The notes beneath the pieces are model-generated. The model was given only the letters and a program-made list of their open reading frames with translations. It made no database searches and had not been told where the DNA came from. Made by a program: the position numbers and the translations under genes. Shown one piece after another: positions 101 to 62,576 of a DNA stretch of 64,000 bases (its first letter is position 1; each line of letters begins with the position of its first letter). Origin of the DNA: Frondihabitans peucedani (GTDB lineage: Bacteria > Actinomycetota > Actinomycetes > Actinomycetales > Microbacteriaceae); contig NZ_BAABAU010000001.1 in assembly GCF_039537585.1 (NCBI RefSeq), positions 124,001 through 188,000 on the forward strand, read 5' to 3'.

Positions 101-3100
101 GACACGGCCCCGATCGACACGAGCACCTGGCCCGGCGCGACCTGGTCGCCCGCCTTCGCGTAGACCTCGAGCACGCGGCCCGACACGGGCGCCTGGATCA
201 CCGACTCCATCTTCATCGCCTCCACCGCCAGGATCCTGTCGCCCGCCTCGACGACGGCCCCGACCTCGACGTTCAGCTGCCAGATCGTCGACAGGAAGGG
301 CGCCGACACCCCCGTCACACCGTCCGGCAGCACGATCTCGTCGCTCGCGACGGCTGCGGGCTCGTCGCGCACGTCGAACTCGCCGGACGCCCGCCAGCGC
401 TCCTTCTCCTCGTCGAAGGCTCGCGCCTGCTGGGCCCGGAACGCGGCGATCGAGTCGTCGTTGTCGACCAGGAAGCGCTCGTAGGCGGCGATCGAGAACT
501 CGCCCCCGACGGTCTCGAAGTGCCCGCGCCCGGCGTCGGTCTCGGCCCGGAGCTCGAGGAGCTCGTCGGCCGACACCGGGTACCACTCGATCCGGTCGAA
601 GAAGCGCAGTGCCCAGGGCTGCTCGTCGAAGAGCCCGCCCTTCCGGAACCGGTTCCAGATCGGCACGGTGCGGCCGACGAACTGGTAGCCGCCGGGGCCC
701 TCCATCCCGTAGATGCAGAGGTAGGCGCCGCCGATCCCGACGGAGTTCTCGGCCGTCCAGGTCCGGGCCGGGTTGTACTTCGTCGTCACCAGACGATGCC
801 TCGGATCGAGCGGCGTCGCGACCGGGGCGCCGAGGTAGACGTCGCCGAGCCCGAGGACCAGGTAGCTGGCGTCGAAGACGGTGCGGAAGACGTCGTCGAC
901 GCTCTCGAGCCCGTTGATCCGGCGGATGAACTCGATGTTCCAGGGTGTCCACGGGGCGTCGCTCCGGACTCCCGCCATGTACCGCTCGATGGCGAGCCGG
1001 GTCGCAGGATCGTCCCACGACAGCGGCAGCCGGACCGTCCGCGACGGCACCACCAGCTCGCTCGTCGCGGGGATCTCGTCTTCGAGCTCGCGGAGCAGCG
1101 CCGCCATCCCCGACGCCTTCAGGATGCTCGCGTCGGTGTGCACCTGCAGCGACCGGATGCCCGGGGTCACGTCGACGATCCCGCGGGGGGAGTGCTCGGC
1201 GAGCTTCTCCTGGAGGGCGTGGACGCGCATCCTGAGTCCGATGTCGAGGGTCATGTCGCCGTACTCGACCAGGACGTTGTCGTCGCCGTCGCGCCGGTAG
1301 GTGACGCTCGGGCGCGCGTCGGTCTCGTCGAGGCGCGCGAGCACCCCGTCGTCGCCGTCGCCGCCGGAGGTGAGGAGCGTCAGCGAGGCGCGCTGATCGA
1401 TGAGACCCGCGGCCTCGTCCTCGCGGACCGGCACGAACCGGATGGTGTCGCCCGGGCGGAGCTGCCCGAGCTTCCAGAGCTCGCCGCTCGCCACGACGGC
1501 GGGGCAGACGAAGCCGCCGAGGCTCGGGCCGTCGGGCCCCAGGATGATCGGGGTGTCACCGGTGAAGTCGATGGCGCCGACCGCGTAGGGGGTGTCGTGG
1601 ATGTTCGAGGGGTGCAGGCCCGCCTCGCCGCCGTCCTCACGGGCCCAGCCGGGGCGCGGCCCGATGAGCCGCACGCCGGTGCGGGCCGAGTTGTGGTGGA
1701 CGCCGTACTCGGTGGCGTAGAAGACGGCGAGGTCGCCGCGGGTGAAGAAGGTCGGCGCTGCGTGCGGGCCCTCGGTGACGCCGATCTGCCAGGTGGAGGT
1801 CAGGGCCGGGCGTCGGTGCGCGGGCGTCGGCCCCGGGATCCTGGTCAGCCGCTCGTCACCCGCGATCGCCGGGTGCGGGGCCTCCGAGTCGGGCGATCCC
1901 GTGCGGAGGACGTCGCCGGCGAGGAGGGCTCGGCCGGCATGCCCGCCGAACCCGCCGAGGGTGAAGGTCGAGGCGCTGCCGAGGTAGGCGGGAACGTCGA
2001 TCCCGCCGCGGACCGCGAGGTAGGCGCGGAGGCCGGGGCCGGGGATCGTCCCGACGCTGAGGGTCTGGCCGGCGGCGACGTCGAACGGCTCCCAGAGCGG
2101 GACCGCGACGCCGTCGAGCGTGACGGGGGCCTCGGCGCCCGTGACCGCGACGACGGAGGCAGCCGAGAAGGTCAGCACCGGGCCCGTGGCCGTGATCTCG
2201 AGGGCGGGCGCACCGTCGGGATTGCCGACGGCCAGGTTGGCCTCCGCGAGCGATACAGGATCGAAGGGTCCCGACGGCGGCACGCCGACCTGCCAGTAGC
2301 CGATGCGGCCCGGGAGGTCCTGCACCGTCGTCTGGAGTCCGGGGGAGACGACGTCGATCCGCGGGTCGGGATCGGAGGTCGTGTCGAGGGTGGAGGTCGA
2401 GTGGGTCGCGGTCCGGAGGTCGGGATCGTCGGCGAGCGAGCGGACGAACCCGAGGTTCGTGACGACGCCGTCGATCCTGGACGCGTCGAGCGCCTCGCCG
2501 AGGAGGTCGAGGGCGCCGTCGCGCGTCGGCGCCGAGGCGATGACCTTGGCGAGCATCGGATCGTAGAACGGCGACACGGTGAGGCCGGTCTCGATCCAGC
2601 CGTCGACCCGGACCCCGTCGAGGGCGTCGCCGCCCTGCCCTGGGAACACGGCCCGCGTGACGAGGCCGGAGCTCGGGAGGCTCTGCTTGGCAGGGTCCTC
2701 CGCGTAGACGCGCGCCTCGACGGCGTGACCGGTGGGCGTGGCGGGCCGGTCGAAGAGACCCGCGTCGGGGCCCCGGTCGAGCCCGGGTGCCCCGTCGCGC
2801 GCCAGCCGGAGCATGAGCCCCACGAGGTCGACCCCGTAGACCTCCTCGGTGACCGGGTGCTCGACCTGCAGGCGCGTGTTGACCTCCAGGAAGGACGCCT
2901 CCTCGCGCACCGGGTCGTAGACGAACTCGACGGTGCCCGCCGATCGGTACGACACGCTCTCGGCGAGTGAGCGGGCCGAGGAGTGCAGGATCGCGCGCAC
3001 GTGATCCGGCAGGGCGGGCGCCGGCGCCTCCTCGATCACCTTCTGGTTGCGGCGCTGCAGCGAGCAGTCGCGGTCGCCGAACACGGCGACCCGCCCCTCG

Positions 3101-3801
3101 CCGTCGCCGAAGAGCTGCACCTCGACGTGCCGGGCCGGCCGGACGAGGCGCTCCAGGAACACCCCGGCCGAACCGAAGTTCTTCTCGGCGAGGCGGGCGA
3201 CACCGAGGTACGCGTCGCGCACCTCGTCGAGGGTGTGGCAGGCCTGCATGCCGATCCCGCCGCCACCGCCGGTCGCCTTGAGCATGACCGGGAGGCCGAT
3301 CCTGCGCGCCTGGTCGACGGCCTCGTCGACGGATGCCAGGAGCCCGGTGCCCGCGAGCATCGGCACGCCGGCCTCGGCGGCGAGGGCCCTGGCCGTGTGC
3401 TTGGCACCGAACGAGACGATCTGCTCGGGCGTCGGGCCGATGAAGACGAGTCCGCGCTCCTCGACGGCGCGGGCGAACTCGACGTTCTCCGAGAGGAAGC
3501 CGTAGCCCGGGTGCACCGCGCCCGCGCCGGTCCGCTCGGCGGCGTCGAGGATCGCCTCGATCCGGAGGTACGACTCGCGCGCCGGGGCAGGCCCGAGGTG
3601 CACGCGCTCGTCGGCCTCCCGGACGTGCGGCGCTGCGCGGTCGGCGTCGGAGAAGACCGCGACGGCGCGCAGGTCGTTCTCGTGGGCCGCGCGGATGATC
3701 CTGCGCGCGATCTCGCCCCGGTTCGCGATGAGGACCGTGTCGAAGCGGGCGGTGCCGCTGCCGGCGCTGCCCGAGCTGCCGGTCCCGCTACCGGCGCTCA
3801 C
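97..3801 (-). CDS. Biotin-dependent urea/guanidine carboxylase
   Basis: A 1234-residue biotin enzyme that carboxylates urea or, more likely here, guanidine with ATP and bicarbonate. Domain order: biotin carboxylase (about 20-470; ATP-grasp glycine loop GGGGGIGM near 180, EVNTRLQVEHPVTEEV near 310), KipA/AHS2-like carboxyltransferase half (about 480-780), KipI/AHS1-like half (about 840-1060), and a C-terminal biotinyl domain with AMKM, biotin on Lys about 1197. Length is typical of full urea carboxylases. The GTG start overlaps the upstream stop (GTGA) and is followed by a Ser/Gly-rich lead of about 18 residues before the normal FDTVLIANRGEIA; no closer start exists. The two DUF1989 genes upstream favour guanidine as substrate. 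Biotinylation and substrate are inferred. Confidence 0.93.
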   Translation of the reverse strand: MSAGSGTGSSGSAGSGTARFDTVLIANRGEIARRIIRAAHENDLRAVAVFSDADRAAPHVREADERVHLGPAPARESYLRIEAILDAAERTGAGAVHPGYGFLSENVEFARAVEERGLVFIGPTPEQIVSFGAKHTARALAAEAGVPMLAGTGLLASVDEAVDQARRIGLPVMLKATGGGGGIGMQACHTLDEVRDAYLGVARLAEKNFGSAGVFLERLVRPARHVEVQLFGDGEGRVAVFGDRDCSLQRRNQKVIEEAPAPALPDHVRAILHSSARSLAESVSYRSAGTVEFVYDPVREEASFLEVNTRLQVEHPVTEEVYGVDLVGLMLRLARDGAPGLDRGPDAGLFDRPATPTGHAVEARVYAEDPAKQSLPSSGLVTRAVFPGQGGDALDGVRVDGWIETGLTVSPFYDPMLAKVIASAPTRDGALDLLGEALDASRIDGVVTNLGFVRSLADDPDLRTATHSTSTLDTTSDPDPRIDVVSPGLQTTVQDLPGRIGYWQVGVPPSGPFDPVSLAEANLAVGNPDGAPALEITATGPVLTFSAASVVAVTGAEAPVTLDGVAVPLWEPFDVAAGQTLSVGTIPGPGLRAYLAVRGGIDVPAYLGSASTFTLGGFGGHAGRALLAGDVLRTGSPDSEAPHPAIAGDERLTRIPGPTPAHRRPALTSTWQIGVTEGPHAAPTFFTRGDLAVFYATEYGVHHNSARTGVRLIGPRPGWAREDGGEAGLHPSNIHDTPYAVGAIDFTGDTPIILGPDGPSLGGFVCPAVVASGELWKLGQLRPGDTIRFVPVREDEAAGLIDQRASLTLLTSGGDGDDGVLARLDETDARPSVTYRRDGDDNVLVEYGDMTLDIGLRMRVHALQEKLAEHSPRGIVDVTPGIRSLQVHTDASILKASGMAALLRELEDEIPATSELVVPSRTVRLPLSWDDPATRLAIERYMAGVRSDAPWTPWNIEFIRRINGLESVDDVFRTVFDASYLVLGLGDVYLGAPVATPLDPRHRLVTTKYNPARTWTAENSVGIGGAYLCIYGMEGPGGYQFVGRTVPIWNRFRKGGLFDEQPWALRFFDRIEWYPVSADELLELRAETDAGRGHFETVGGEFSIAAYERFLVDNDDSIAAFRAQQARAFDEEKERWRASGEFDVRDEPAAVASDEIVLPDGVTGVSAPFLSTIWQLNVEVGAVVEAGDRILAVEAMKMESVIQAPVSGRVLEVYAKAGDQVAPGQVLVSIGAVS

Positions 3802-4520: not shown

Positions 4521-5350
4521 TGTGCGCGGGCCTCCCAGTAGTCGGTGGTGTTGAGGTAGGCGCGGGTGCGCTCGGGGCTGGCGGTGTACGCGTCGTCGCC
4601 CGGCCCGGTCGGCGAGCCCGGCCAGGCGTGCACCCGGAGCGGCCCGACCGTGTACGCCGGTCGAGGGTCGAGCGGGTGAGGGACGTTCGCCAGCAGGATC
4701 ACGAGAGGCAGCTCGGCCGTGAACTCGACCGCGGTGCCCGGCCCGGCACTCCCCGTGTACGTCACCCCGCCCTCGTCGTCCACGCGGGCGCCCTGGAAGA
4801 ACGACACCGACGGCGGCAGGTCGCGCGGGGTGAGGCCGTGTTTGGCAGCCCCGAGCGCGAACAGCGACCGACCGGCGGGAGCCGGGCCCTCGGGGATGCT
4901 CGAGCCGTACTTCCGCTCGTTCCACGCCGCCGAGGAGGTGCCGCAGAATGCGTCGTGCCGACCGGAGGTGTCGGTCCGGATCGTGGCGAGCACGCGACCG
5001 TCGCCGGAGAGGAGCGGGTGACCCGCCGACAGGTAGGCCTGCCACGGGATCTTCAGCGTGTCGGCGACGTTCAGCCGCTCCCACGGCTCCAGCGCGTTGA
5101 ACAGCAGCAGGTGCGCGCACGCGTCGCCGGTCGGGTCGTCCAGCCGGAAGCGCGTGCCCCGGGCGACGACGCGGTGCGTGTAGCCGCCGGGCGCGACGGT
5201 CTCCGCCCAGACGAGCGATTCCGGATCGACGCCCGCGGGCGCGAACGGCGACGACGAGGCCGGCAGGTAGGGCATGAAGTCGCTGGTGAGGTCGGCCCGG
5301 GCGCGCGCGTCGCTCCGCGCGGCCCAGACGGTGTCGGTCTGGTTCGTCAT
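4517..5350 (-). CDS. DUF1989 protein, urea carboxylase-associated type 1 (carboxyguanidine deiminase subunit)
   Basis: A 277-residue DUF1989 paralogue immediately upstream of the other one, with ATGA overlap to the permease and GTGA overlap downstream. It shares the core (FRLDDPTGDACAHLLLFNALEPWERLNVADTLKIPWQAYL, aligned to the partner's SADCLIFDALDHDERYSVPDTITWQGNAYV) and keeps DAFCGTSSAAWNERKYG, but the C-terminal cysteine cluster of its partner is absent, replaced by ANVPHPLDP. It is therefore likely the partner subunit of a heteromeric carboxyguanidine deiminase rather than a stand-alone enzyme. Start ATG chosen because it makes the 4-base overlap and gives normal family length. Confidence 0.85.
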   Translation of the reverse strand: MTNQTDTVWAARSDARARADLTSDFMPYLPASSSPFAPAGVDPESLVWAETVAPGGYTHRVVARGTRFRLDDPTGDACAHLLLFNALEPWERLNVADTLKIPWQAYLSAGHPLLSGDGRVLATIRTDTSGRHDAFCGTSSAAWNERKYGSSIPEGPAPAGRSLFALGAAKHGLTPRDLPPSVSFFQGARVDDEGGVTYTGSAGPGTAVEFTAELPLVILLANVPHPLDPRPAYTVGPLRVHAWPGSPTGPGDDAYTASPERTRAYLNTTDYWEARAQ

Positions 5351-6930
5351 GCGGCCTCCGCGCCCTGGACGGTCGGGATCTGCGCGGTCGTCGCGACGGT
5401 CCGCAGCTCGCTGTGACTGCGGTGCGTCGTCGCGTAGTAGGCCGCTCCGACCGCGAGCGTCGCACCGATGAAGAGGGGCGCCGACCACTGCAGCCACCAG
5501 CTGTGCCCGGTGAGGTCGTAGATCGCGGCCCTCGGCCAGGCGAGGTTCACGACCATGAGCACCTGGAACACCACGGCGACGATGTTGACCGGGATCGCCC
5601 AGCGCCCCATCGAGAAGAGCGGCTTGCCGTCCTCGTCGACGCCGGCCTCCTTGTCGCGGGTCCAGCCCTGGATCCTGCGCACCAGGAGCGGCACGGTCAC
5701 GCCGAGGTAGGCCAGGTAGAGCATGGCGATGCAGAGGCTCGACAGGGCGGTGAACAGCGCGGACTGCCCGATGTTGACCAGCAGGGCGATCGCAGCGCCC
5801 GCACCGACGACGATCGAGGTGCCGATCGGGGTGCCCGTGCGCGGCGAGACGCGCGACAGGAAGTCGGAGAAGGGCAGGGCGCGCTCGCGGGCCATCGAGT
5901 AGACCATCCGGGAGCCCGAGGTCTGGACGGCGAGGGTGCAGGCGAACACGGCGACGGCGACGCAGCAGAGGAGGAGGCGGCCGAGGACGCCGCCCAGGCG
6001 GGTCTCGACGAGGCCCGCGAGGCCTCCCGAGACGAGCGATCCGTCGGTCAGGCTCGGCGCCGCGACGAGGGCGGCGACGATGAGGAGCGCGCCCCCGAGG
6101 CCCGATACCGTGAGGGCGCGGATGATCGTCTTCGGCGTGGTGCGGCGCGGGGAGTGCGTCTCCTCGCTGAGCTCGCCGGCGGAGTCGAAGCCGACCATGA
6201 CGTACGCGGCCATCAGCGCCGAGGCGAGCCACACCCAGAGGTAGGCGCCGCCGGGGGCGCGGCCCTCGTCGGTGAAGACGACCGAGGGGGAGCGCTCGGG
6301 CAGGAGGAACAGCGCCACGACCAGGACGACGACGCCCACGATCTCGATGAGCACGCCGATGCTCGTGACCCGGGCCATGAGCCGCACCGACACGATGTTC
6401 ACGGTCGTGGTGATCACGAGCATGATGCAGCCGAGGAGCACGGCGTTCGCAGCTCCGGTCGGCGACAGCGGGGCCGAGTCGGCGGTGGGGCCTCCGACGA
6501 TCTGGAAGCCCGACCAGATGGCCGGCAGGACCGCCTGCACCGCGACGGCGGCGACCGCGACGGTCAGGATCTGCCCGATGATCATCGTCCAGCCGGTGAA
6601 CCAGCCGACGACACTGCCCGCGAGGCGGCTCGACCACTGGAAGATCGCGCCGGAGATCGGCCACCAGGCGGCGAGCTGCGCGAAGTTCAGCGCGACGAGG
6701 AGCTGCCCGGCGAAGACGACGGGCCAGGCCCAGAAGAACGCGGCGCCCCCGAACGAGAAGCCGAGGCCGAAGAGCTGGAAGACGGTCGTCAGGATCGACA
6801 CGAACGAGAACCCGGCGGCGAATGAGGCGAAGGAGCCCACGCCGCGGTGGAGGTCCTGCGGGTAGCCGTGCGAGGCGATCGTCTCGCTCCGCTCGGGAGC
6901 CGGGGCCGTGGTGGTGCGAGAGGAGCTCAT
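5347..6930 (-). CDS. APC-superfamily permease (guanidine/urea-operon transporter)
   Basis: First gene of the nitrogen operon; 527 residues with about 12 hydrophobic segments, in the amino acid/choline (GABA-permease-like) branch of the APC superfamily. The family signature loop GFDSAGELSEETHSPRRTTPKTII is present near residue 255, and the first membrane segments carry the GFSFVSILTTVFQLFGLGFSFGG pattern. The ATG is preceded by AAAGG six to ten bases upstream. Cytoplasmic-membrane import of the compound degraded by the downstream enzymes (guanidine, urea or a related amine) is inferred from the operon; no direct substrate evidence is visible. A strong 22-bp palindrome lies 31 bases upstream of the start. 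Confidence 0.88.
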   Translation of the reverse strand: MSSSRTTTAPAPERSETIASHGYPQDLHRGVGSFASFAAGFSFVSILTTVFQLFGLGFSFGGAAFFWAWPVVFAGQLLVALNFAQLAAWWPISGAIFQWSSRLAGSVVGWFTGWTMIIGQILTVAVAAVAVQAVLPAIWSGFQIVGGPTADSAPLSPTGAANAVLLGCIMLVITTTVNIVSVRLMARVTSIGVLIEIVGVVVLVVALFLLPERSPSVVFTDEGRAPGGAYLWVWLASALMAAYVMVGFDSAGELSEETHSPRRTTPKTIIRALTVSGLGGALLIVAALVAAPSLTDGSLVSGGLAGLVETRLGGVLGRLLLCCVAVAVFACTLAVQTSGSRMVYSMARERALPFSDFLSRVSPRTGTPIGTSIVVGAGAAIALLVNIGQSALFTALSSLCIAMLYLAYLGVTVPLLVRRIQGWTRDKEAGVDEDGKPLFSMGRWAIPVNIVAVVFQVLMVVNLAWPRAAIYDLTGHSWWLQWSAPLFIGATLAVGAAYYATTHRSHSELRTVATTAQIPTVQGAEAA

Positions 6931-9471: not shown

Positions 9472-10833
9472 CTAGGTGATCGTCACCGTCGGCAGGTGGT
9501 GCCGCATCCGCACGTGCAGGTGGAGCTGGCCGCGCCTCGCGAGAGCGATCCCGGCGACGACCGCGGCCAGCGCCGGCATGCCCCCGGAGACGAGCATCCC
9601 GATGTGCACGCTGAAGGACGACACGATCCAGCCCATGACGGGTCCGCCGATGGCCTGCCCGCCGAGGAGCACCAGCACGTACAGCGACATCACGCGCCCG
9701 CGGACGGCGATGTTCGACGACATCTGCACGAGCGAGTTCGACGCGGTCTGGAACAGCAGCGCCGAGAGGCCGACGGTGATCAGCAGGATCGAGAACGGCA
9801 CGATCGACGGCATGAGACCGGCGGTGGCCTGCAGGATCCCGGTCACACCGACCCCGACCACGACGGTGCGCAGCCGGAGGTTCGCGCGCCGCGTCGACAG
9901 CAGGGCGCCGGTGAGGGCGCCGACGGCGATCATGGAGTTGAAGAGGCCGTAGCCGCCCGCGCCGACCTTGAAGACCGTGTCGGCGTAGGTCGCCAGGAGC
10001 ACCGGCATGGTCAGCCCGAAGACGGCGAAGACGGCGACCAGGAACACCGGCCAGATGATGGTCGGCTTGTGGACCGCGTAGCGGAGGCCCGCCCGGAGCT
10101 GCCCGGGCTCGCGCGGCGGCGGCGCGATCCTGGTCATCTGACTCGTGCGGAGCCTCGACAGCGTGAAGACGACGAGAGCGCAGGCCAGCCCGTTGATGAC
10201 GAAGGCCCAGCCCGCGCCGACCGCGAGGAGGAGGACGCCCGCGAGCGCGGGCCCGATCATGCCGCCGAGCTGGAACACCGACGAGTTGACGCTGATGGCG
10301 TTCCGGAGGTTCTTCTGGCCGACCAGCTCGGTGACGATGACCTGCCGAGCGGGGTTGTCGATCACGGTCACGAGGCCCGTGGCGAACGCGATCGCCCAGA
10401 CCATCCAGGCCTCGACGTTGCCGGACAGGGTGAGGGCTGCGAGACCGATCGACAGGACGGCGAAGGTCGACTGCGTGATCATCATCAGCATCCGCTTCGA
10501 GAAGCGGTCGACGACGACGCCGCCGAAGAGGCCGAACAGGAGCATCGGGGCGAACTGCATGGCGACGGTCACTCCGACCGCGGTCGCGCTGCCGGTGAGC
10601 TCGAGCACCAGCCAGTCCTGAGCGACCTTCTGCATCCAGGTCGCGGTCATCGCCACGAGGTTGCCCGCGGTCCAGATGCGGAAGTTCGGCACCGACAGCG
10701 CGATGAACGTGTGGCGCCACGGCGGCCGCTCGGTGACGACGCGGAGAGGCTCGGTGGGCGGGTAGGGAGTCGGCACTGCCTGACTCGAAGGGGCCTGGGT
10801 GGGAACGGCGGAGGTCGACGTCGACGTGGTCAC
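9472..10833 (-). CDS. MFS transporter (MFS_3 / EntS-like)
   Basis: A 453-residue major facilitator with about 12 membrane spans. N-terminal Pro/Thr-rich tail of about 40 residues, then SVPNFRIWTAGNLVAMTATWMQKVAQDWLVLELTGSATAVG, the typical opening of the EntS/MFS_3 exporter group, and the loop VVVDRFSKRMLM in place of motif A. GTG at 10833 chosen: AGGA lies about 15 bases upstream and the frame beyond it reads through the divergent regulator. Likely a plasma-membrane drug or metabolite exporter. Divergent from the LysR gene at 10952, which probably controls it through the sites at 10897-10942. Confidence 0.85.
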   Translation of the reverse strand: MTTSTSTSAVPTQAPSSQAVPTPYPPTEPLRVVTERPPWRHTFIALSVPNFRIWTAGNLVAMTATWMQKVAQDWLVLELTGSATAVGVTVAMQFAPMLLFGLFGGVVVDRFSKRMLMMITQSTFAVLSIGLAALTLSGNVEAWMVWAIAFATGLVTVIDNPARQVIVTELVGQKNLRNAISVNSSVFQLGGMIGPALAGVLLLAVGAGWAFVINGLACALVVFTLSRLRTSQMTRIAPPPREPGQLRAGLRYAVHKPTIIWPVFLVAVFAVFGLTMPVLLATYADTVFKVGAGGYGLFNSMIAVGALTGALLSTRRANLRLRTVVVGVGVTGILQATAGLMPSIVPFSILLITVGLSALLFQTASNSLVQMSSNIAVRGRVMSLYVLVLLGGQAIGGPVMGWIVSSFSVHIGMLVSGGMPALAAVVAGIALARRGQLHLHVRMRHHLPTVTIT

Positions 10834-10951: not shown

Positions 10952-11809
10952 GTGTACGATCCTGCGCTCCTCCGGACCTTCCTCGTCGTGGCCGAGACCC
11001 ACAGCTTCACGCTGGCCGCCCAGCGGCTGGGCATCAGCCAGCCGACCGTGAGCCAGCACGTGTCGAAGCTCGAGAAGGCGGCGGGCAGGATGCTCGTGGC
11101 CCGCGACACCCGAGAGGTCGCCCTCACCGACAACGGCGACGCGATGGCCGGCTTCGCCCGGACGATCCTCGCGGCCCACGCGTCGGCCGAGAGCTACTTC
11201 TCGGGCTCGGCGATGGCGGGGCGGCTGCGGTTCGGCGCGGCGGACGACCTCGCCATCACGCAGCTCCCGCGGATCCTGCGCCACTTCCGACAGCTCTACC
11301 CGCAGATCAACCTGGAGCTCACCGTCAACCAGAGCGTGCCGCTCCGACGTCGGCTCGCGTCCGGCCAGCTCGACCTCATCTTCGTGAAGCAGAACGCGGG
11401 GGAGTACGACGACGGCACCCGCGTCGCCGGCGACCCCATGGTCTGGATTGCCCAGGAGCGCATGCGCCTCGAGCCCGACCAGCCGGTGCCCCTCATCACC
11501 TACCAGGCGCCGAGCCTCTCCCGGCAGATGGCCATCGACGCGCTCGAGCGGTCCGGCCGCACCTGGCGCATCACCTGCAACACGCGCGACGTCAACGGCA
11601 TCCTCGCCGCCGTCCGCGCCGGCATCGGCATCGCCGTCTTCCCGTACTCGCTGATCCCGGCCGACCTCGTCAAGGTCTCGGTCCGGTTCGGGCTCCCCGA
11701 CCTCGGCGACGTCGACTATGTGCTCGTCGCCAACCCGACGGCCGCGCGCGAGCCCGTCGAGGCGCTCACCTCCGCGATCCTGAGCCGGGGCGTCAGCCGA
11801 GCCGAGTGA
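10952..11809 (+). CDS. LysR-family transcriptional regulator
   Basis: A 285-residue LTTR. Winged-helix DNA-binding domain at residues 1-60 (LLRTFLVVAETHSFTLAAQRLGISQPTVSQHVSKLEKAAG), then a periplasmic-binding-like effector domain (about 88-280) with the usual GRLRFGAADDLA start and AAVRAGIGIAVFPYSL near 225. GTG start; the next in-frame start would cut the helix-turn-helix. Divergently transcribed from the MFS exporter with a 118-bp intergenic that holds two LTTR boxes, so local and autoregulation are likely. Effector unknown. Confidence 0.9.
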   Translation: MYDPALLRTFLVVAETHSFTLAAQRLGISQPTVSQHVSKLEKAAGRMLVARDTREVALTDNGDAMAGFARTILAAHASAESYFSGSAMAGRLRFGAADDLAITQLPRILRHFRQLYPQINLELTVNQSVPLRRRLASGQLDLIFVKQNAGEYDDGTRVAGDPMVWIAQERMRLEPDQPVPLITYQAPSLSRQMAIDALERSGRTWRITCNTRDVNGILAAVRAGIGIAVFPYSLIPADLVKVSVRFGLPDLGDVDYVLVANPTAAREPVEALTSAILSRGVSRAE

Positions 11810-11855
11810 GCGGGGCCGGGTCCGCGCGCACTGTCTTCTGAGGCAGGATCGAGGC

Positions 11856-12233
11856 ATGACCTCCGCCTCCCCGAGAACCCTCGCCGCCGCCCTCGCCGCC
11901 GTGCTCGCCGCCTCCGGCACGCTGCACCTCGTCCGCCCGCAGACCTTCGACCCGATCGTGCCGCGCGCTCTGCCCGGCGAACGGCGGACCTGGACCCTCG
12001 TCTCGGGCTACGCCGAGCTCGCCACGGCAGCCGCTCTCGCGGCGAAGCCCTCGCGCAGGATCGGCGGGAGCCTCGCCGCCCTCCTGTTCGTCGCCGTGTT
12101 CCCGGCCAACATCGTGATGGCCAGGCAGTACCTCCGCAGCTCGAAGACGACTCGCACCGCGAAGGCGATCGTGCTCGCCCGGCTGCCGCTGCAGGTGCCG
12201 CTGGTCCTATTCGCGCTCCGCGCCCGCGGCTGA
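11856..12233 (+). CDS. Small DoxX-like membrane protein
   Basis: A 125-residue protein with four hydrophobic stretches (about 8-24, 48-62, 69-86, 103-122). The pattern LAASGTLHLVRPQTFDPIVPRALPGERRTWTLVSGYAELATAAAL matches the DoxX/DUF4267-like family of actinobacterial four-helix membrane proteins, which often contain H-L-x-x-P-x-x-F-x-x-I-V-P. Integral plasma-membrane protein; role unknown. It follows the LysR gene by 46 bases on the same strand and may be cotranscribed. Confidence 0.75.
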   Translation: MTSASPRTLAAALAAVLAASGTLHLVRPQTFDPIVPRALPGERRTWTLVSGYAELATAAALAAKPSRRIGGSLAALLFVAVFPANIVMARQYLRSSKTTRTAKAIVLARLPLQVPLVLFALRARG

Positions 12234-18333: not shown

Positions 18334-18361
18334 GGTCGATCGGACCAGAGCAGGATCGACC
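18334..18361. promoter_or_regulatory. Inverted repeat operator between SDR and XRE regulator
   Basis: Arms GGTCGATC (18334-18341) and GATCGACC (18354-18361), perfect, 12-base spacer. It sits 22 bases from the SDR start and 52 from the regulator start, suited to repression of both. Confidence 0.6.
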
Positions 18362-33291: not shown

Positions 33292-33340
33292 CGTCGGCCG
33301 CGCGGCCGCGATCCTGCGCCCCTCGCCTCGTCTGGGGAAG

Positions 33341-33416: not shown

Positions 33417-34421
<1,005 letters not shown>

Positions 34422-34970: not shown

Positions 34971-35000
34971 GGGGTCGGTGGTCGATGGCAGGATCACGCC

Positions 35001-52687: not shown

Positions 52688-54028
52688 CTACTCCGCGCTG
52701 CGAGCGGGCGCAGGAGCCCCGGGGTCTCGACCCTCGAGGACGAGCACGCCGTCGACCAGGGTGCCCTCGTCGTCGCGCACCAGCCACTCCTGAGGGCCGC
52801 CACCGACCCCGACGCCCCGGAACGCCACCGACCCCTCGTCGAAGATCGAGACCTCGATCCCCGGCAGGGGCGGGCCCACGGCTCCGACAGGGCGCGTGAA
52901 CGGCGCATCGGCCCGCTCGAGGGTCACGAGGCCGCCGGTCGCGCGGTCGCCGTAGCCCTCGAGGCAGCGGATGTCCAGCGCGCGCAGCTGGAGCCGCATC
53001 CCGAGGGTCACCGCCTCTTCGGTCGAGATCGCGACGACGGTGGAGAGTCGCCCGCCGGCCGCCTTGCGGATGCCGCGGAGCACGAGCGTGTCGGCGACGG
53101 CGAACCGGGTCTTGAGGCCGCGCGGGACCGGTCCCGGCTCGAGCGCCTCGGCGTACTCGACGGCGACCTCGAGGGCCTGGCGGAGCGCGGTCGCCCGGCC
53201 GGACGCCTCGGCGCGCGCGTGCACTGTCTCGTCGATGTCGCGGAGGGTCGACGGGTACGCCATCAGGAGCGTCGGCTTGAAGGCGGCCATGGTCTCGACG
53301 AGGCGGCCCGGGTCGGCGAGCTGCGCGATCCTGCTGCCGGTGGCGACCGCGGCGAGAGTGAGGACGCGCGCGTGCACGTCGGTGGCGGGGAGGTGCTGCA
53401 GGAGCTGGCGGCCCGCACCGAGCGCGTCGCCGAGCACGCTCGCGAGGGCGAGCGCGCGCGACGACAGATCTCTCTGCGTGAGACGGTGCTCACCGAGGAC
53501 GACGGCGACGCTGTCGGGGGTGACCTCGGCCACGAGGCCGTCGAAGGCGTCGTCGGGGGTGTCGCGGCCCGAGGCGGCGAGCTTGTCGAGGTCGCCGAGG
53601 CCGATCTGCCACACCTCGGCGACGAGGGGGAGGTCGCCCTGGAGCTCGTCGATGCGGGCGAAGTCGCGCGCCGTCTCGACCACGACGGCCCGGACCCCCT
53701 CCTCGTCGAGGAGGGCGGCCAGCTCGGACTGCGACGACGACGGGGACAGCGGCACCACGACCACGCCCACGGCGGCGGCGGCGAAGTCGACCAGGACGGC
53801 CTCGAAGCGCGTCGAGCAGAGCACGGCCAGCGCGTCGCCCGGGTGGAGCCCGGCGGCCGCGAGGCCCCTGGCCAGCGCGCGGACCCGGCCCGCGAACTCG
53901 GGGCCGGTCAGATCGAACCAGCCGCCGAACGAGTCGGGGAGGGCGAAGACGGCGGCCTCAGGATCGACCCGGGAGCCCCGGTCGAGGAGCTCGTTCAGGA
54001 TCACGGCGTCGGCGGGCGTTGCGGGCAC
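52688..54028 (-). CDS. Degenerate AMP-forming acyl-CoA synthetase-like protein
   Basis: A 446-residue ANL-superfamily protein, GTG start with GGAAGG upstream. N-terminal half is clear (FDLTGPEFAGRVRALARGLAAAGLHPGDALAVLCSTRFEAVLVDFAAAAVGVVVVPL), as are FKPTLLMAYPSTLRDIDETV and RPVGAVGPPLPGIEVSIFDEG. But the phosphate loop (TSGTTGxPKG) is missing: VAVVL runs straight into GEHRLTQRDL. The usual YGxTE motif is YGDRA, and the C-terminal catalytic-lysine domain is absent. It is about 150 residues shorter than its FadD15-like relatives. The frame is otherwise intact with normal codon use, so it is more likely a retained pseudoenzyme than a decaying gene. Confidence 0.85.
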   Translation of the reverse strand: MPATPADAVILNELLDRGSRVDPEAAVFALPDSFGGWFDLTGPEFAGRVRALARGLAAAGLHPGDALAVLCSTRFEAVLVDFAAAAVGVVVVPLSPSSSQSELAALLDEEGVRAVVVETARDFARIDELQGDLPLVAEVWQIGLGDLDKLAASGRDTPDDAFDGLVAEVTPDSVAVVLGEHRLTQRDLSSRALALASVLGDALGAGRQLLQHLPATDVHARVLTLAAVATGSRIAQLADPGRLVETMAAFKPTLLMAYPSTLRDIDETVHARAEASGRATALRQALEVAVEYAEALEPGPVPRGLKTRFAVADTLVLRGIRKAAGGRLSTVVAISTEEAVTLGMRLQLRALDIRCLEGYGDRATGGLVTLERADAPFTRPVGAVGPPLPGIEVSIFDEGSVAFRGVGVGGGPQEWLVRDDEGTLVDGVLVLEGRDPGAPAPARSAE

Positions 54029-54125
54029 GGCCTTCCTTCCTCGAGAGGCTGCAGGATCGCTCCACTGTATCGAAGGGCCGACGCCCGACCGTGGACTGCT
54101 GCTGGCAGGGGCGACGGTAGAGTGG

Positions 54126-55156: not shown

Positions 55157-55846
55157 TTGTTCTACTGGATCATGAAGACGTTCCTCTTCCGTCCGATCCT
55201 GCTGTCGATCTTCCGCCCGTGGGTCGTGGGCAAGCAGAACGTCCCCGAGGAGGGGGCGCTGATCTTCGCCAGCAACCACCTCTCGTTCGTCGACTCGATC
55301 TTCCTGCCCCTCGTGCTCGAGCGCCGCCTGTCGTTCCTCGCGAAGAGCGACTACTTCACGGGGCGCGGCTTCAAGGGCGTCATGACGAAGCTGTTCATGA
55401 CGGCGTCCGGCATGCTGCCGATCGACCGCTCGGGCGGCAAGGCATCCGAGGCGTCGCTGGCGACGGGCCTCAAGGTGCTGGCCCGAGGCGACCAGCTCGG
55501 CATCTACCCCGAGGGGACTCGGAGCCCTGACGGGCGCCTCTACCGCGGCCGCACCGGCGTCGCGCGGATGATCCTCGAGGGTCGCGTCCGGGTCGTCCCG
55601 GTCGCCATGATCGACACGCAGAAGGTCATGATCACCGGATCGAAGCGCCCGCACCTCCACCGCATCGGCATCGTCTTCGGCGAGCCGCTCGACTTCAGCC
55701 GCTTCGAGGGGCTGGAGGGCGACCGCTTCATCCTGCGCTCGATCACCGACGAGATCATGCACGAGCTCAACCGGCTCGGCGGTCAGGAATACGTGGACGT
55801 CTACGCGTCTTCGGTCAAGGAGAGACGGGCTCTCCTTTCGCGATAG
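55157..55846 (+). CDS. plsC: 1-acyl-sn-glycerol-3-phosphate acyltransferase
   Basis: A 229-residue PlsC-family acyltransferase. Catalytic block NHLSFVD (NHx4D, about 40-46), FLAKSDYFTG, GMLPIDRSGG and substrate-binding PEGTRSPDGRLYRGRTG (about 118-134). TTG start with GAAGGAG 9 bases upstream. Membrane-associated; adds the second acyl chain in phospholipid synthesis. Same-strand neighbour of the DAHP synthase gene, matching the mycobacterial Rv2182c-Rv2178c neighbourhood. Confidence 0.93.
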   Translation: MFYWIMKTFLFRPILLSIFRPWVVGKQNVPEEGALIFASNHLSFVDSIFLPLVLERRLSFLAKSDYFTGRGFKGVMTKLFMTASGMLPIDRSGGKASEASLATGLKVLARGDQLGIYPEGTRSPDGRLYRGRTGVARMILEGRVRVVPVAMIDTQKVMITGSKRPHLHRIGIVFGEPLDFSRFEGLEGDRFILRSITDEIMHELNRLGGQEYVDVYASSVKERRALLSR

Positions 55847-55901: not shown

Positions 55902-57278
55902 GTGCTCCAGACCGATTTCCCAGTCATCTCCGCCGATCCCGACGTGATCGCAGGGCTGGACTATTGGCGCACGCTCCCCATCAAGCAGCAGCCGGAGTGG
56001 CCCGACCACTCCGCCGTCGAGGCCGCCTCGGCCGAGATCGCGACGTTCCCGCCGCTGGTGTTCGCCGGCGAGGTCGACACGCTCCGCGAGCGGCTCGCCA
56101 CGGCGGCTGCGGGCAAGGCGTTCCTGCTGCAGGGCGGCGACTGCGCCGAGACCTTCGCCGACGCGACCGCCGACAACATCCGCAACCGGGTCAAGACGAT
56201 CCTGCAGATGGCCGTCGTCCTGACCTACGGCGCCTCCGTGCCGGTCATCAAGATGGGCCGCATGGCCGGTCAGTTCGCGAAGCCGCGCTCGTCCGACATG
56301 GAGACCCGCGACGGTGTGACGCTGCCGGCCTACCGCGGCGACATCATCAACGGGTACGACTTCACGCCCGAGTCGCGGCAGCCCGATCCTGCGCGGCTCG
56401 TGAAGGGGTACCACACCTCGGCTTCGACGCTGAACCTCATCCGCGCCTTCACCCAGGGCGGCTTCGCCGACCTCCGCCAGGTGCACTCCTGGAACAAGGG
56501 CTTCGCCTCGAACCCCGCCAACGTCATGTACGAGCACCTCGCCCACGAGATCGACAAGGCGGTGCGCTTCATGGAGGCGGCCGGCGCCGACTTCGACGAG
56601 ATGAAGCGCGCCGAGTTCTACACCTGCCACGAGGCGCTCCTGATGGACTACGAGCGTCCGATGACCAGGATCGACTCCCGCACCGGCACGCCGTACACGC
56701 TCTCGAGCCACTTCGTCTGGATCGGTGAGCGCACGCGCGACCTCGACGGCGCCCACGTCGACTTCCTGTCGCGGGTCCGCAACCCGATCGGGGTCAAGCT
56801 CGGCCCGACGACGACGCCCGACGACATGCTGCGCCTGATCGACAAGCTCGACCCCGAGCGGGAGCCGGGCCGCCTGACCTTCGTCACGCGCATGGGTGCG
56901 GGCAAGATCCGCGACGCCCTCCCGCCGCTCCTCGAGGCCATCAAGTCGTCCGACGCGACGCCGCTCTGGGTCTCCGATCCGATGCACGGCAACGGCATGA
57001 CGACTCCCACCGGCTACAAGACGCGCCGCTTCGAAGAGATCGTCGACGAGGTCAAGGGCTTCTTCGAGGCGCACCGGGCGGCGGGCACGCACCCGGGCGG
57101 GATCCACATCGAGCTCACCGGCGACGACGTCACCGAGTGCCTCGGCGGCTCCGAGCACATCGACGAGGCCACCCTCGCGACGCGCTACGAGAGCCTCTGC
57201 GACCCGCGCCTCAACCACATGCAGTCGCTCGAGCTGGCGTTCCTCGTCGCCGAGGAGCTGTCGGCCGCTCAGGCCTGA
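55902..57278 (+). CDS. aroG: Class II 3-deoxy-D-arabino-heptulosonate 7-phosphate synthase
   Basis: A 458-residue class II DAHP synthase, first enzyme of the shikimate pathway (PEP plus erythrose 4-phosphate). Marks: LQGGDCAETFA (about 82-92, metal-ligand Cys), KMGRMAGQFAKPRS, RGDIINGYDF, RAFTQGGFADLRQVHSWN, GERTRDLDGAHVDFLSRVRNPIGVKLGP, VSDPMHGNG and GGIHIELTGDDVTECLGG. GTG start with GAGGAAC upstream. An in-frame GATCCTGC octamer (56385) encodes Asp-Pro-Ala with uncommon codons. Followed by a terminator hairpin. Confidence 0.96.
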   Translation: MLQTDFPVISADPDVIAGLDYWRTLPIKQQPEWPDHSAVEAASAEIATFPPLVFAGEVDTLRERLATAAAGKAFLLQGGDCAETFADATADNIRNRVKTILQMAVVLTYGASVPVIKMGRMAGQFAKPRSSDMETRDGVTLPAYRGDIINGYDFTPESRQPDPARLVKGYHTSASTLNLIRAFTQGGFADLRQVHSWNKGFASNPANVMYEHLAHEIDKAVRFMEAAGADFDEMKRAEFYTCHEALLMDYERPMTRIDSRTGTPYTLSSHFVWIGERTRDLDGAHVDFLSRVRNPIGVKLGPTTTPDDMLRLIDKLDPEREPGRLTFVTRMGAGKIRDALPPLLEAIKSSDATPLWVSDPMHGNGMTTPTGYKTRRFEEIVDEVKGFFEAHRAAGTHPGGIHIELTGDDVTECLGGSEHIDEATLATRYESLCDPRLNHMQSLELAFLVAEELSAAQA

Positions 57279-57379: not shown

Positions 57380-59443
57380 CTACCCGACGCTGAGGCTCGA
57401 CCCGTCGTACTTCAGCGTCACCGTGTCGCCCTTGAAGGCGGTCCCCTGACCGGCCGGGCTCTGCGACTGAACCTTCACGAGCTTCCGCCAGTCGAATCCG
57501 AGCGCTGTCGCCGTGGCGCACTGCGCGGTCGTGCAGTCGGCGTACGAGACCTTGAGGCCGAGCGCGGCCAGTGCGCTCTCGGCGGTCGACACCTTGCGGC
57601 CGGTCTCGTCGGGCACGGTGATCGGGGTCGGACCCTTCGACACCACGAGGTCGATGGTCGATCCGGGGACGACGGCGCCGTCGCCCTCGGCGCCCTGGCG
57701 TATGACCGCGCCGTTGGCGACGCTGTCGCTGTACTCGCCGCCCGACTGGACGCTCTTCAGGCCGACGGCCGTGAGGGCCGCCTGCGCCGCTGAGAGCGAC
57801 TGCCCGGTGACGTCCGGGACGGGCCCGAGCGACACGGTGAGGGTCACCGGTCGACGCTCGGGGTAGGTCGTCGCGTTCTGCAGGTCGACCGTCGCACCGG
57901 ACGCGTTCTTGCCGGCGATCCCGAGGACCGTGCCCTTGGCCTTCTGATCGAACCGCGTCGTCGACGCCCCGACGGTGAACGGCGACAGTGCCTTCTTCGC
58001 GGCGTCCTCCTGCTGGCCGACGACCTTGGGCAGACTCAGGATCCGGGGGCCCTGCGACACCACGAGCCGCACGGCCGAGCCCTTGTGGACGGTGGCTCCC
58101 GCCTCGGGACGCGTGCCGGTGACCTGGCCGGCGGCGATCACGGGGTCGTAGGTCTTGACCTGCTCGTCGCTCACGCCGAAGCCCTGCGCCTCCAGCTTCG
58201 AGGTCGCCTGCGCCACGCTCGCGTTCGTGATCGCGGGCACGGTCGCCTGCGACCCGGGCCCGAGGCTGAACCACCAGGCCGTGGTGCCGGCGACGAGCGC
58301 GAGCACGACGACGAGCACCAGCCAGACGGCGCCGCGCTTGCGGCGGGCGGCGGCCTTCCGGCCGAGGGCCTCCGCGTTCGTCCCCAGGGCCGGCGTCACC
58401 GGGCCGGTGCGGTGGCGGGCCTTCTGCAGGATCGCCGTCTCGCCCGTCGAGCCGCGGAGCCCGGCCGGTCCGGTCTGGCCGGTGGGACCGTTCTGGCCCG
58501 CCGGACCGGTCGGGTTGCGCCCGGCGCCGAATGCCTCGGCGGGCGGCACCGGCGCCATGGCGCGGGGGAGCACCATCGTCTTCTGCGTGCCGCCGGGGAC
58601 GGCGTCGCCGCGCTGCAGGTCGTACAGGTGCTCGAGCATGGCCCGGGCGTCGCGGGGGCGCTGCTCGGGGTCGCGGGCGGTCGCCCAGAGGACGAGCTCG
58701 TCGAGCTCCGCCGGGACCCGCGGGTTGACGGCGGACGGCATGGGCACGGTGTCGTTGGCGTGCTGGTAGGCGATCTGCATGGGCTGCTCGCCCTTGTAGG
58801 GCTGCTCGCCGGTCAGCATCTCGTAGAGCATGATGCCGAGCGCGTAGATGTCGCTGCGGGTGTCGGCGATGCCGCGGGTCACGAGCTCCGGCGACAGGTA
58901 GGCGATCGTGCCGAGGAGGGCTGCGCCGGTGGCAGTGTTGGCGCTGGCGGCGCGGGCGAGGCCGAAGTCGCCGATCTTGATCCGGCCGTCGTCGGCGAGG
59001 AGCACGTTCTCGGGTTTCAGGTCGCGGTGCACGATGCCCGAGCGGTGTGCGGCGGCGAGCCCGGCGAGCACGGCCTCGAGGATGTCGGTGGCCTGCTCGG
59101 GAGTGAGCACCCGGTGCTCCTGGAGGAGCTCGCGGAGCGTGATGCCGGGGAGGTACTCCATGACGATGTACGCCGACTCGTCGTCCTGACCCTGGTCGTA
59201 GACGTTGACGACGTTCGGGTGCGCGAGTCGCGCGGCCGAGCGCGCCTCCTGGATGAAGCGCTCCTTGAAGTTCTCGTCGTCGGCGAGGTGGCCGTGCATG
59301 ATCTTCACGGCGACGGGCCGCTCGAGCCGCAGGTCGGACGCGAGGTAGACCGTCGCCATCCCGCCGCGGGCGATGCGTGAGCGCACCCGGTAGCGGCCGT
59401 CGATGAGCCGGCCGATCATCGGGTCAGTCTGGTTGGCGCTCAC
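57380..59443 (-). CDS. pknL: PASTA-domain Ser/Thr protein kinase (PknL position)
   Basis: A 687-residue membrane kinase. Kinase domain 14-270: GGMATVYLA loop, AVKIMH Lys47, IVHRDLKPEN Asp141, DFGLA Asp159, GTIAYLSPEL. A linker (about 313-340) has collagen-like Gly-x-y units (GPAGQNGPTGQTGPAGLRGSTG), unusual for this family. One span at about 375-395, then four extracellular PASTA repeats (VPAITNASVAQATSKLEAQGF; LPKVVGQQEDAAKKAL; VPDVTGQSLSAAQAALTAVGL; VPDETGRKVSTAESALAALGL), which bind muropeptides/lipid II. GTG start at 59443. Location between aroG and the Rv2175c-like gene, the known PknL substrate, supports pknL; PknB-like function is the alternative. Confidence 0.9.
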   Translation of the reverse strand: MSANQTDPMIGRLIDGRYRVRSRIARGGMATVYLASDLRLERPVAVKIMHGHLADDENFKERFIQEARSAARLAHPNVVNVYDQGQDDESAYIVMEYLPGITLRELLQEHRVLTPEQATDILEAVLAGLAAAHRSGIVHRDLKPENVLLADDGRIKIGDFGLARAASANTATGAALLGTIAYLSPELVTRGIADTRSDIYALGIMLYEMLTGEQPYKGEQPMQIAYQHANDTVPMPSAVNPRVPAELDELVLWATARDPEQRPRDARAMLEHLYDLQRGDAVPGGTQKTMVLPRAMAPVPPAEAFGAGRNPTGPAGQNGPTGQTGPAGLRGSTGETAILQKARHRTGPVTPALGTNAEALGRKAAARRKRGAVWLVLVVVLALVAGTTAWWFSLGPGSQATVPAITNASVAQATSKLEAQGFGVSDEQVKTYDPVIAAGQVTGTRPEAGATVHKGSAVRLVVSQGPRILSLPKVVGQQEDAAKKALSPFTVGASTTRFDQKAKGTVLGIAGKNASGATVDLQNATTYPERRPVTLTVSLGPVPDVTGQSLSAAQAALTAVGLKSVQSGGEYSDSVANGAVIRQGAEGDGAVVPGSTIDLVVSKGPTPITVPDETGRKVSTAESALAALGLKVSYADCTTAQCATATALGFDWRKLVKVQSQSPAGQGTAFKGDTVTLKYDGSSLSVG

Positions 59444-59520: not shown

Positions 59521-59542
59521 GCGCGATCCTGCAGGATCGCGC
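59521..59542. terminator. 22-bp perfect palindrome made of two inverted GCAGGATC octamers
   Basis: Eleven bases (GCGCGATCCTG) followed by their exact complement, 11 bases after the LysM gene stop and before the kinase gene. Likely a terminator; it contains the window's over-represented octamer in both orientations. Confidence 0.7.
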
Positions 59543-60949: not shown

Positions 60950-60969
60950 GGCAAGTCAATTAACGAGGC

Positions 60970-60987: not shown

Positions 60988-61046
60988 TCTCACCCCAGAG
61001 CGGGGGAGGGTGACAGGCGCCGGTGAGTCCGTGGCACAGTTGACCC

Positions 61047-61445: not shown

Positions 61446-61454
61446 CGAGCAGCG

Positions 61455-62576
61455 TCAGGCCGATCGCGCGGTGACCGTGTCGGCGAGCTGCGACAGCTGC
61501 GTCCGGGCGCTCTTCGCCAGCGGCGCGTTGTCGATCGCGTCCTTCGCGCGCGTCACCTGATCGGCGATCGACTCCTCGAGGGCGTCGACGGCGCCGGACT
61601 CCCGGATCGTGGCCTGCAGGATCGCGATCTGGTCGTCGTCGAGACCGGGGTCGCCCAGGAGCTCGTCGAGCAGGCGGACCGCGCTCTGCGGCAGCGACTC
61701 GCGCGCGGTCGCGATGAGCACCGTGCGCTTTCCCTCCCGCAGGTCGTCGCCCGCGGGCTTGCCGGTGACGGCCGGGTCGCCGAAGACGCCGAGCAGGTCG
61801 TCGCGAAGCTGGTAGGCGATGCCGAGGGGCAGGCCGAAGCGCCGGAGCGCGTCGAGGTGCTCGGCGGTGCCGCCGGCCATGGCCGCACCGATCGTGAGCG
61901 GAGCCTCGACGGAGTACTTGGCGGACTTGTAGACGATGACCCGCTGCGCCCTCGGCAGGAGCTCGTCGGCGGGGACGGCGCCCCAGGCGCTCTCCTCCAG
62001 GATGTCGAGGTATTGACCGGCGGTGACCTCCGTGCGCATGCGGTTGAACTCGCGTCGGGCCGCGACGGCGGCGTCGCGCGACGGCAGCGAGTCGAAGGCC
62101 TCGGAGACGAGCTCGTCGCTCCACGAGAGCAGGAGGTCGCCGAAGAGGAGCGCCGCGGAGGTGCCGAACGACCCGGCGTCGCCGAGCCAGGAGCCGTCGC
62201 GGTGGAGGCCCTCGAACCGGCGGTGCGCCGCGGGGAGCCCGCGACGGGTGTCGGAGTTGTCCATGATGTCGTCGTGCACGAGGGCCGCGGCGTGGAAGAA
62301 CTCGAGCCCCGCCGACGCGGTCAGGACGCTCGCCAGCTGGGCGCGGTCGGGACCCTCGGCGAGAGGGTCGGACGAGGCGCCGATGGCCTGCACGGACTGC
62401 CAGCCCCAGTAGCAGAACAGGGCCCGGAAGCGCTTGCCGCCCTGGAGGAGGTCGGCGGAGAACCGGGCGAACGGATCGAGGTCGGAGGCGATGCGGGCCA
62501 GATGCGGCCGCTGCCCGTCGAGGAAGGTGTCGATCCGCTCTTGAACGACGTCTACTAACCGCGTACTCTCAGCCAC
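61455..62576 (-). CDS. Polyprenyl (isoprenyl) diphosphate synthase
   Basis: A 373-residue trans-prenyltransferase. First Asp-rich motif DDIMD in AALVHDDIMDNSDTRRGLPAAHRRFEG, second DDLLGVFGD in AYQLRDDLLGVFGD, and GGKRFRALFCYWGW for substrate binding. Makes geranylgeranyl-type or longer diphosphates for menaquinone, carotenoids or wall lipid carriers; chain length cannot be set with certainty. GTG start. Corresponds in position to mycobacterial idsA2 near Rv2175c. Confidence 0.93.
   Translation of the reverse strand: MAESTRLVDVVQERIDTFLDGQRPHLARIASDLDPFARFSADLLQGGKRFRALFCYWGWQSVQAIGASSDPLAEGPDRAQLASVLTASAGLEFFHAAALVHDDIMDNSDTRRGLPAAHRRFEGLHRDGSWLGDAGSFGTSAALLFGDLLLSWSDELVSEAFDSLPSRDAAVAARREFNRMRTEVTAGQYLDILEESAWGAVPADELLPRAQRVIVYKSAKYSVEAPLTIGAAMAGGTAEHLDALRRFGLPLGIAYQLRDDLLGVFGDPAVTGKPAGDDLREGKRTVLIATARESLPQSAVRLLDELLGDPGLDDDQIAILQATIRESGAVDALEESIADQVTRAKDAIDNAPLAKSARTQLSQLADTVTARSA

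Follow-up and report, generated by a model that had tools for sequence, protein, structure and literature searches.

A genome-wide octamer with species dialects in Frondihabitans, a candidate self-DNA recognition word

The window analyzed here is a stretch of 64,000 nucleotides of the Frondihabitans peucedani genome (contig NZ_BAABAU010000001.1, positions 124,001 to 188,000). The octamer GCAGGATC, which recurs throughout the window, is strongly maintained, lineage-specific, and has dialects in related species. We propose, with a confidence that stays somewhat short of even, that GCAGGATC acts as a genome-wide self-DNA recognition word, which would be sustained by sequence-biased uptake and recombination in the manner of DNA uptake sequences (DUS). 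Exact counting on both strands gave 62 copies in the window, 34 as GCAGGATC and 28 as GATCCTGC, in agreement with the count made by eye in the initial annotation of this DNA. Genes were called by a custom script, and 53 of the 62 copies lie inside them. The G+C content of the window is 71.4%, and the chance expectation ranges from 3.6 (order-1 Markov model) to 11.5 (order-3 Markov model). The large excess noted initially therefore stands, while the chance figure of about 2 given with it was low.

Excess beyond codon use and composition

The genome of the window (G000, 3.69 Mb; its contigs are cited as C1, C2 and C4) contains 1579 copies of GCAGGATC and 1629 of GATCCTGC, 3208 in total or 0.87 per kb. 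The control word with the letters in reversed order occurs 22 times genome-wide, which is a loose yardstick, since this control contains the rare tetramer CTAG. Under the maximal-order Markov model no excess is seen in the window (57.8 expected and 62 observed), because the 7-mers within GCAGGATC are themselves over-represented.

The contribution of codon use was assessed in a sample of 32 non-overlapping stretches of the same genome (674.7 kb, plasmid contig C2 left out), which holds 601 copies, 297 and 304 by strand. Synonymous codons were shuffled within each gene in 20 runs. In the 597 kb of called coding sequence (CDS), 511 copies were observed against 68.3 ± 7.5 after shuffling (maximum 82), a 7.5-fold excess. 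The observed and expected counts in the six reading phases were 59 and 1.0, 91 and 8.1, 60 and 5.2, 92 and 1.6, 5 and 0.4, and 204 and 52, so every phase is in excess, as the initial annotation had claimed for all frames. Intergenic DNA holds 82 copies in 76.9 kb, or 1.07 per kb. Twelve octamers reach both 50 copies and a 3-fold excess; every one of them is GCAGGATC or one of its shifted or one-letter forms, and no unrelated octamer showed a comparable excess in this sample under the synonymous null. The two findings that would have discredited the word, a count near expectation and an equal excess of many unrelated octamers, were thus not obtained, because the excess survives the codon control and no unrelated octamer matches it. 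That codon-pair or dipeptide bias, or an artefact of composition, produces the excess is highly improbable. The phase read as ATC CTG (Ile-Leu) is indeed expected to be common and contributes 52 of the 68 expected copies, but the excess is present in six phases and between genes, and the enriched octamers all derive from GCAGGATC; this explanation was rejected on the phase-by-phase shuffling.

The enriched word extends over 8 bp. Its flanks carry mainly codon periodicity, with a weak preference for C before and G after the word (n = 307), and the spread of a longer repeat element was therefore rejected. All three substitutions of G at position 1 (to A, C or T) remain in 2.8- to 3.4-fold excess, and the change of C to G at position 8 in 2.2-fold excess; the remaining two substitutions at that position are rare. 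The inner one-mismatch forms are found at 0.3- to 1.9-fold the expectation. CAGGAT without either edge letter shows no excess (153 versus 141.8 expected, in a sample that counted 12 kb twice). The overlapping palindromic pair GCAGGATCCTGC occurs 8 times in the own-genome sample, with about 12 kb counted twice.

The copies are symmetric between the strands. By local GC skew, 308 lie on the G-rich and 293 on the C-rich strand (p = 0.57), and this, together with the 1579 and 1629 copies by contig strand, bears out the lack of strand bias noted initially. GCAGGATC was found in all 32 non-plasmid stretches; its spacing is exponential (coefficient of variation 1.06), and its density varies between stretches about as expected by chance (chi-square 35.9, 31 degrees of freedom). 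Of ten proteins searched from contig C2 (94 kb), one is a TrwC relaxase and another a TraG/TraD coupling protein. The contig holds 6 copies, against 5.4 to 7.2 expected from its own composition; this one conjugative plasmid contig carries only a chance number of the word.

Dialect words and site turnover in Frondihabitans

Seven Frondihabitans genomes were compared, namely G000 and the six sisters Frondihabitans sp. Leaf304 (G004), G087, G120, G121, Frondihabitans sp. PhB188 (G122) and F. sucicola NBRC 108728 (G123), which share about 80–84% DNA identity in aligned regions. GCAGGATC is raised in all seven, from 222 to 869 copies per Mb. The lowest value, that of G122, is barely over the highest outgroup value of about 215 per Mb; the CDS of G122 contains 43 copies versus 11.8 expected. 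Across 120 family genomes, no genus stands out apart from Frondihabitans and a single further one (G047). G047 has 1559 copies in 2.9 Mb, and the remaining genera do not exceed about 215 per Mb (rounded genome sizes). The 36 non-Frondihabitans members of a set of 39 named genomes, including Frigoribacterium, Leifsonia and Curtobacterium, stay within about 127 per Mb. In an outgroup pool of 15 other genera (G003 and G019 left out, G047 analyzed apart), GCAGGATC occurs 35 times in CDS versus 17.5 expected and is absent from 25 kb of intergenic DNA.

The leading words were surveyed in about 100–124 kb from each genome. GCAGGATC leads in G000, G123 and G120, and GCAGGATC(C) in G047. The leading words are GCAGGATC(C) and GCAGGAGC in G087, GCAGGAGC and GCAGGATGC in G121, GCAGGAAC in G122, and AGGATCCG, CAGGATCC and AAGGATCC in G004. 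Against the synonymous null, GCAGGAAC reaches 37 versus 4.7 in the CDS of G122, AGGATCCG 50 versus 6.3 in that of G004, and GCAGGAGC 56 versus 13.5 in G121 and 82 versus 23.5 in G087; in these genomes the three words exceed the null in 5 or 6 of the 6 phases. The dialects share a CAGGA-like core, of which AGGATCCG retains only AGGA. A few orthologous sites (32886, 42795, 50141 and 51461 in the window) show the sister's own form. The dialect word replaces GCAGGATC in place at 1 of 16 sites in G122, 4 of 33 in G121 and 2 of 44 in G087, and GAAGGATC of G004 does so at 3 of 10. An in-place swap as the rule was rejected, as it occurs at some sites and most dialect sites lie elsewhere.

Turnover was followed at aligned sites, with permuted octamers as controls. 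From G000 to G123, 41 of 82 aligned sites are identical, 9 contain indels and 7 are one letter off. The one-mismatch share is 8.5%, compared with 32% for permuted octamers, of which 38% are identical. In each of the six species-pair directions, sites one letter off are scarce (2.7–21% versus 28–32% permuted). The identical class exceeds the controls in three directions, from G000 to G123, G123 to G000 and G087 to G000, and falls below them from G000 to G087 (26.5%), G122 (20%) and G121 (17%), where permuted octamers give 33–36%. Conservation of octamer positions beyond the controls, a point raised by the initial annotation, is seen in three directions and lacking in three. Among 63 sites aligned in at least three sisters, 25 are private to G000, and 18 of these differ by at least two letters from every aligned relative. 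As one-letter intermediates are scarce and many sites private, copies of GCAGGATC are actively completed and lost. This turnover fits drive, selection or fast conversion equally.

Uptake machinery and competing explanations

In the proposed mechanism, a DNA receptor of the competence machinery would prefer fragments bearing GCAGGATC, the imported fragments would recombine with the homologous chromosome, and word-bearing alleles would spread by biased gene transfer, which selection may or may not assist. Through this spread, copies would accumulate to about 1 per kb, irrespective of strand and reading frame, and a conjugative plasmid would not gain them. Drift in the specificity of the receptor would cause the favored word to drift, resulting in species dialects around a CAGGA-like core. 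Uptake, receptor and drive are what we infer here from the behavior of the word.

ComEC and a type IV pilus cluster were identified as gene presence. A comEC gene was found in 14 of 14 genomes examined; that of G120 appears as two adjacent partial matches (C1:2981383-2982173 of that genome), owing to a frameshift or an assembly error. The pilus cluster occurs in all seven Frondihabitans genomes and in five other genera. It contains pilB, pilT, pilC, one to three pilA genes, genes for minor pilins of about 457, 237 and 614 aa, pilD and pilM, and extends in G000 from C1 2144568 to the end of the stretch analyzed, 2156000. The gene names rest partly on reading of the sequences: NCBIfam matches were above the cut-off for PilT and for the prepilin N-termini of PilA and of the 237-aa minor pilin, below it for PilB, PilC and the 457-aa minor pilin (PilV), and none was obtained for the 614-aa protein or PilD. 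The minor pilins diverge fast, with a mean identity of 0.43–0.56 compared with 0.94 for PilB. In G123, the pilT and pilC regions (L135) have short or odd gene calls, which may reflect disruption or a limit of the gene caller, and contig C2 of that genome holds 13 of its 16 N_methyl prepilin matches. The minor pilins of G000 (C1, L133:9692-13619) and G004 (L138) are 76–80% identical, though in the aligned region G000 is nearer to G123; the pilus cluster may thus have been exchanged between species.

Word-specific uptake has been described for Neisseriaceae and Pasteurellaceae (PMC1939737), and a 2025 review lists Neisseria as exceptional in recognizing a word (PMC12236230). Like GCAGGATC, the DUS of Neisseriaceae is a short non-palindromic word with thousands of copies and with dialects around a conserved core, which is CTG in that family (PMC3630211). 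The spread of uptake words is attributed to point changes together with biased uptake (PMC1939737). Frondihabitans, too, has ComEC and type IV pili. The systems differ in that Frondihabitans is an actinobacterium, its word is unrelated, the similarity of its minor pilins, as candidate receptors, does not appear to track the dialects, and no ComP-like receptor was identified. The uptake signal sequence of Pasteurellaceae resembles GCAGGATC in density and symmetry. Within the family of the present genus, Microbacteriaceae, natural transformation has been described for Rhodoluna lacicola and Aurantimicrobium photophilum (PMC11577799). Transformation of Micrococcus luteus uses Flp/Tad pili (PMC6370729, PMC8467076), and the second of these papers does not use the term "uptake sequence". 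In the open-access library searched neither GCAGGATC nor its complement was found as a whole word, and the titles and abstract openings of work on actinobacterial uptake words, Microbacteriaceae transformation and methylomes contain no description of it.

Several observations weigh against a role of GCAGGATC in uptake. Genera without a marked excess of the word have ComEC and the pilus cluster as well, so the presence of the machinery does not discriminate. The minor pilins of G000 are 0.76–0.80 alike to those of G004, which has a different dialect, and only 0.41–0.52 alike to those of G123, which has the same one; whole-protein similarity of these putative receptors thus seems not to follow the dialects. 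Dialect words mostly do not replace GCAGGATC in place, and sites in the farther sisters are not conserved beyond the controls. The uptake sequences of Haemophilus are evenly spaced, and GCAGGATC is spaced no more evenly than random. Haemophilus also has a flanking consensus of 29 bp (PMC1939737), whereas no extended flanking consensus exists around GCAGGATC in the 307 flanks. Mismatched forms of uptake words are over-represented in the study of DNA uptake enhancing sequences (DUES; PMC1939737), and the levels of the inner one-mismatch forms of GCAGGATC are unlike this. A search of the same open-access library that named the genus listed no work on competence in Frondihabitans, and the genus is not mentioned in the papers it listed. 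Of the options listed in the initial annotation, DNA uptake sequences nevertheless fit best, as a candidate role.

The main rival is a serious one, though we think it unlikely: GCAGGATC would arise and persist through repair linked to methylation, or through some other maintenance enzyme, as has been proposed for the cyanobacterial palindrome GCGATCGC (HIP1), whose alternate words pair with cognate methyltransferases (PMC4390886). Both words are very frequent octamers with alternate words in relatives and with one-letter deviations that favor the end letters (for HIP1, PMC4390886). HIPs are palindromes, whereas GCAGGATC is asymmetric, not its own reverse complement, and is not tracked by the two methyltransferase families searched. 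In favor of a methylation motif, an option of the initial annotation, 18 of 18 genomes carry an orphan-looking methyltransferase of the N6/N4 type, about 280 aa long (read in 12 of them); yet genera without the word have it as well, and within the seven Frondihabitans it is 0.88–0.94 identical in spite of the differing dialects. Only G000, G087, G047 and G060 have additional PF01555 genes that score above the cut-off, and PF02086 genes were found in G122, G123, G047 and genera without the word; among the seven Frondihabitans, only G122 and G123 have such D12 methyltransferases. PF01555 and PF02086 enzymes were thus rejected as the cause, as they do not track the word; the search did not extend to the C5, Eco57I-type and type I families. 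The conserved methyltransferase belongs to PF01555 (G000 C4, L245:1243-2091; in the other genomes L246–L256) and carries DPPFNTG and DFFAGSGTTG motifs. No restriction gene was seen by reading beside it in the 2.4–3 kb taken; the neighbors were not searched.

A Chi-like recombination hotspot, recognized by an end-processing helicase-nuclease, is a quite unlikely source of the word. Like GCAGGATC, Chi of E. coli is an over-represented octamer that is not a palindrome, and Chi words differ from species to species. In 300 kb of E. coli MG1655, with genes taken as the longest ORF, Chi occurs 63 times in CDS against 25.9 ± 4.4, a 2.4-fold excess compared with 7.5-fold for GCAGGATC, and it is distributed 48 to 19 in favor of the G-rich strand (p = 0.0005), whereas GCAGGATC is distributed 308 to 293. 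RecC (PF04257) was found in none of 18 genomes here; among 14 control genomes the family matched only in E. coli, and AddAB and AdnAB were not searched. It is very unlikely that GCAGGATC is a segregation or nucleoid motif, whether a directional translocase reads it or a chromosome protein binds it. Such a role would agree with the presence of GCAGGATC in all 32 non-plasmid stretches at a density varying about as chance. Directional segregation motifs are strand-biased and GCAGGATC is not, an objection that applies to the directional kind. The strand symmetry and the E. coli control thus disfavor both Chi and directional segregation motifs, which the initial annotation had offered as options.

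A wider signal may exist in Microbacteriaceae. In the 15 pooled genera, CGGATGC has the top phase-independent score among 7-mers (149 versus 46 outside its commonest phase, with 6 of 6 phases raised), and GGATGC/GCATCC is raised in every phase; among 6-mers of this pool GCTCGA ranks above GCATCC. GGATGC is strongest in G118 (52 versus 16 in about 18 kb of CDS), G021, G060, G026 and G006 (L064, L058, L063, L059 and L050, respectively). Its excess is 0.7- to 3.5-fold in the six genera without N_methyl pilins and 1.1- to 5.5-fold in the nine with them; type IV pilins were rejected as the cause of this signal, as no clear relation is seen across the 15 genera, which is a further point against pilus-mediated uptake. 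A relationship between GGATGC and GCAGGATC, hinted at by GCAGGATGC of G121, is a guess. It is possible, if doubtful, that actinobacteria have uptake or self-recognition words of their own, an old and weak one of the GGATGC type in Microbacteriaceae and a related one that Frondihabitans made into a strong, fast-changing species tag. If so, the Frondihabitans word and its dialects would provide for species-specific gene exchange in a Gram-positive lineage. Should GCAGGATC itself prove to be a self-recognition word, dialected uptake words would have a further, unrelated origin in a Gram-positive genus of high GC content, or the word would belong to a new class of genomic words. Because sisters at about 80–84% identity differ in their words, experiments on uptake or methylation across species would carry their own controls.

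Sites in the window

The copies of GCAGGATC in the window are as follows (coordinates, strand, description).

1004..1011, +, exact match
2985..2992, +, exact match
3298..3305, -, exact match
3697..3704, -, exact match
4693..4700, +, exact match
5671..5678, -, exact match
9783..9790, +, exact match
9831..9838, +, exact match
10958..10965, -, exact match
11272..11279, -, exact match; retained in 4 of 6 sisters
11843..11850, +, exact match
12055..12062, +, exact match
13846..13853, +, exact match
14546..14553, +, exact match
15534..15541, -, exact match
16719..16726, -, exact match
17063..17070, -, exact match
17434..17441, +, exact match
18350..18357, +, exact match
18418..18425, +, exact match
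20388..20395, +, exact match
22381..22388, +, exact match
22584..22591, -, exact match
23753..23760, -, exact match
24513..24520, -, exact match
25449..25456, +, exact match
25523..25530, -, exact match
26054..26061, -, exact match
26280..26287, +, exact match
27847..27854, +, exact match
28126..28133, +, exact match
29187..29194, +, exact match
29773..29780, -, exact match
30722..30729, +, exact match
31266..31273, -, exact match
31872..31879, +, exact match
32886..32893, -, exact match; GCAGGAGC in G121
33310..33317, -, exact match
34089..34096, +, exact match
34190..34197, +, exact match
34988..34995, +, exact match
35292..35299, +, exact match
35534..35541, -, exact match
36876..36883, -, exact match
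39335..39342, +, exact match
40599..40606, +, exact match
42795..42802, +, exact match; GCAGGAGC in G087 and G121
42984..42991, -, exact match
44568..44575, +, first half of palindrome GCAGGATCCTGC at 44568-44579
44572..44579, -, second half of the same palindrome
50093..50100, -, in pyc, in frame as GAT CCT GC
50141..50148, +, in pyc, in frame; GCAGGAAC in G122, GAAGGATC in G004
51461..51468, -, in pyc, in frame; retained in 5 of 6 sisters, GAAGGATC in G004
53327..53334, -, exact match
54051..54058, +, exact match
55195..55202, -, exact match; retained in 5 of 6 sisters
56198..56205, -, in the DAHP synthase gene; retained in 5 of 6 sisters
56385..56392, -, in the DAHP synthase gene, in frame as GAT CCT GC
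58426..58433, +, exact match
59525..59532, -, left half of the 22-bp palindrome at 59521-59542
59531..59538, +, right half of the same palindrome
61616..61623, +, exact match

The pyruvate carboxylase gene pyc was called at 48629-52027 and a class II DAHP synthase gene (aroG in the initial annotation) at 55902-57278. The in-frame placement initially described for three copies in the former (50093, 50141 and 51461) and for one in the latter (56385) holds by position. The two inverted pairs reported alongside also exist, as GCAGGATCCTGC at 44568-44579 and GCGCGATCCTGCAGGATCGCGC at 59521-59542. The latter, a 22-bp palindrome, lies directly 3′ of a LysM-domain gene (59553-60863, minus strand). The terminator role assigned to it is not supported, because the palindrome has no T tract and no terminator-like match, and folds only slightly better than its shuffles (z = -1.56; 16 of 200 shuffles equal or better). 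Two other words, GGAGGATC and GCAGGACC, each fall short of the synonymous null in 7 of 8 genomes (CDS samples of Frondihabitans and G047); the deficit of GGAGGATC perhaps reflects avoidance of ribosome-binding-like words inside genes.

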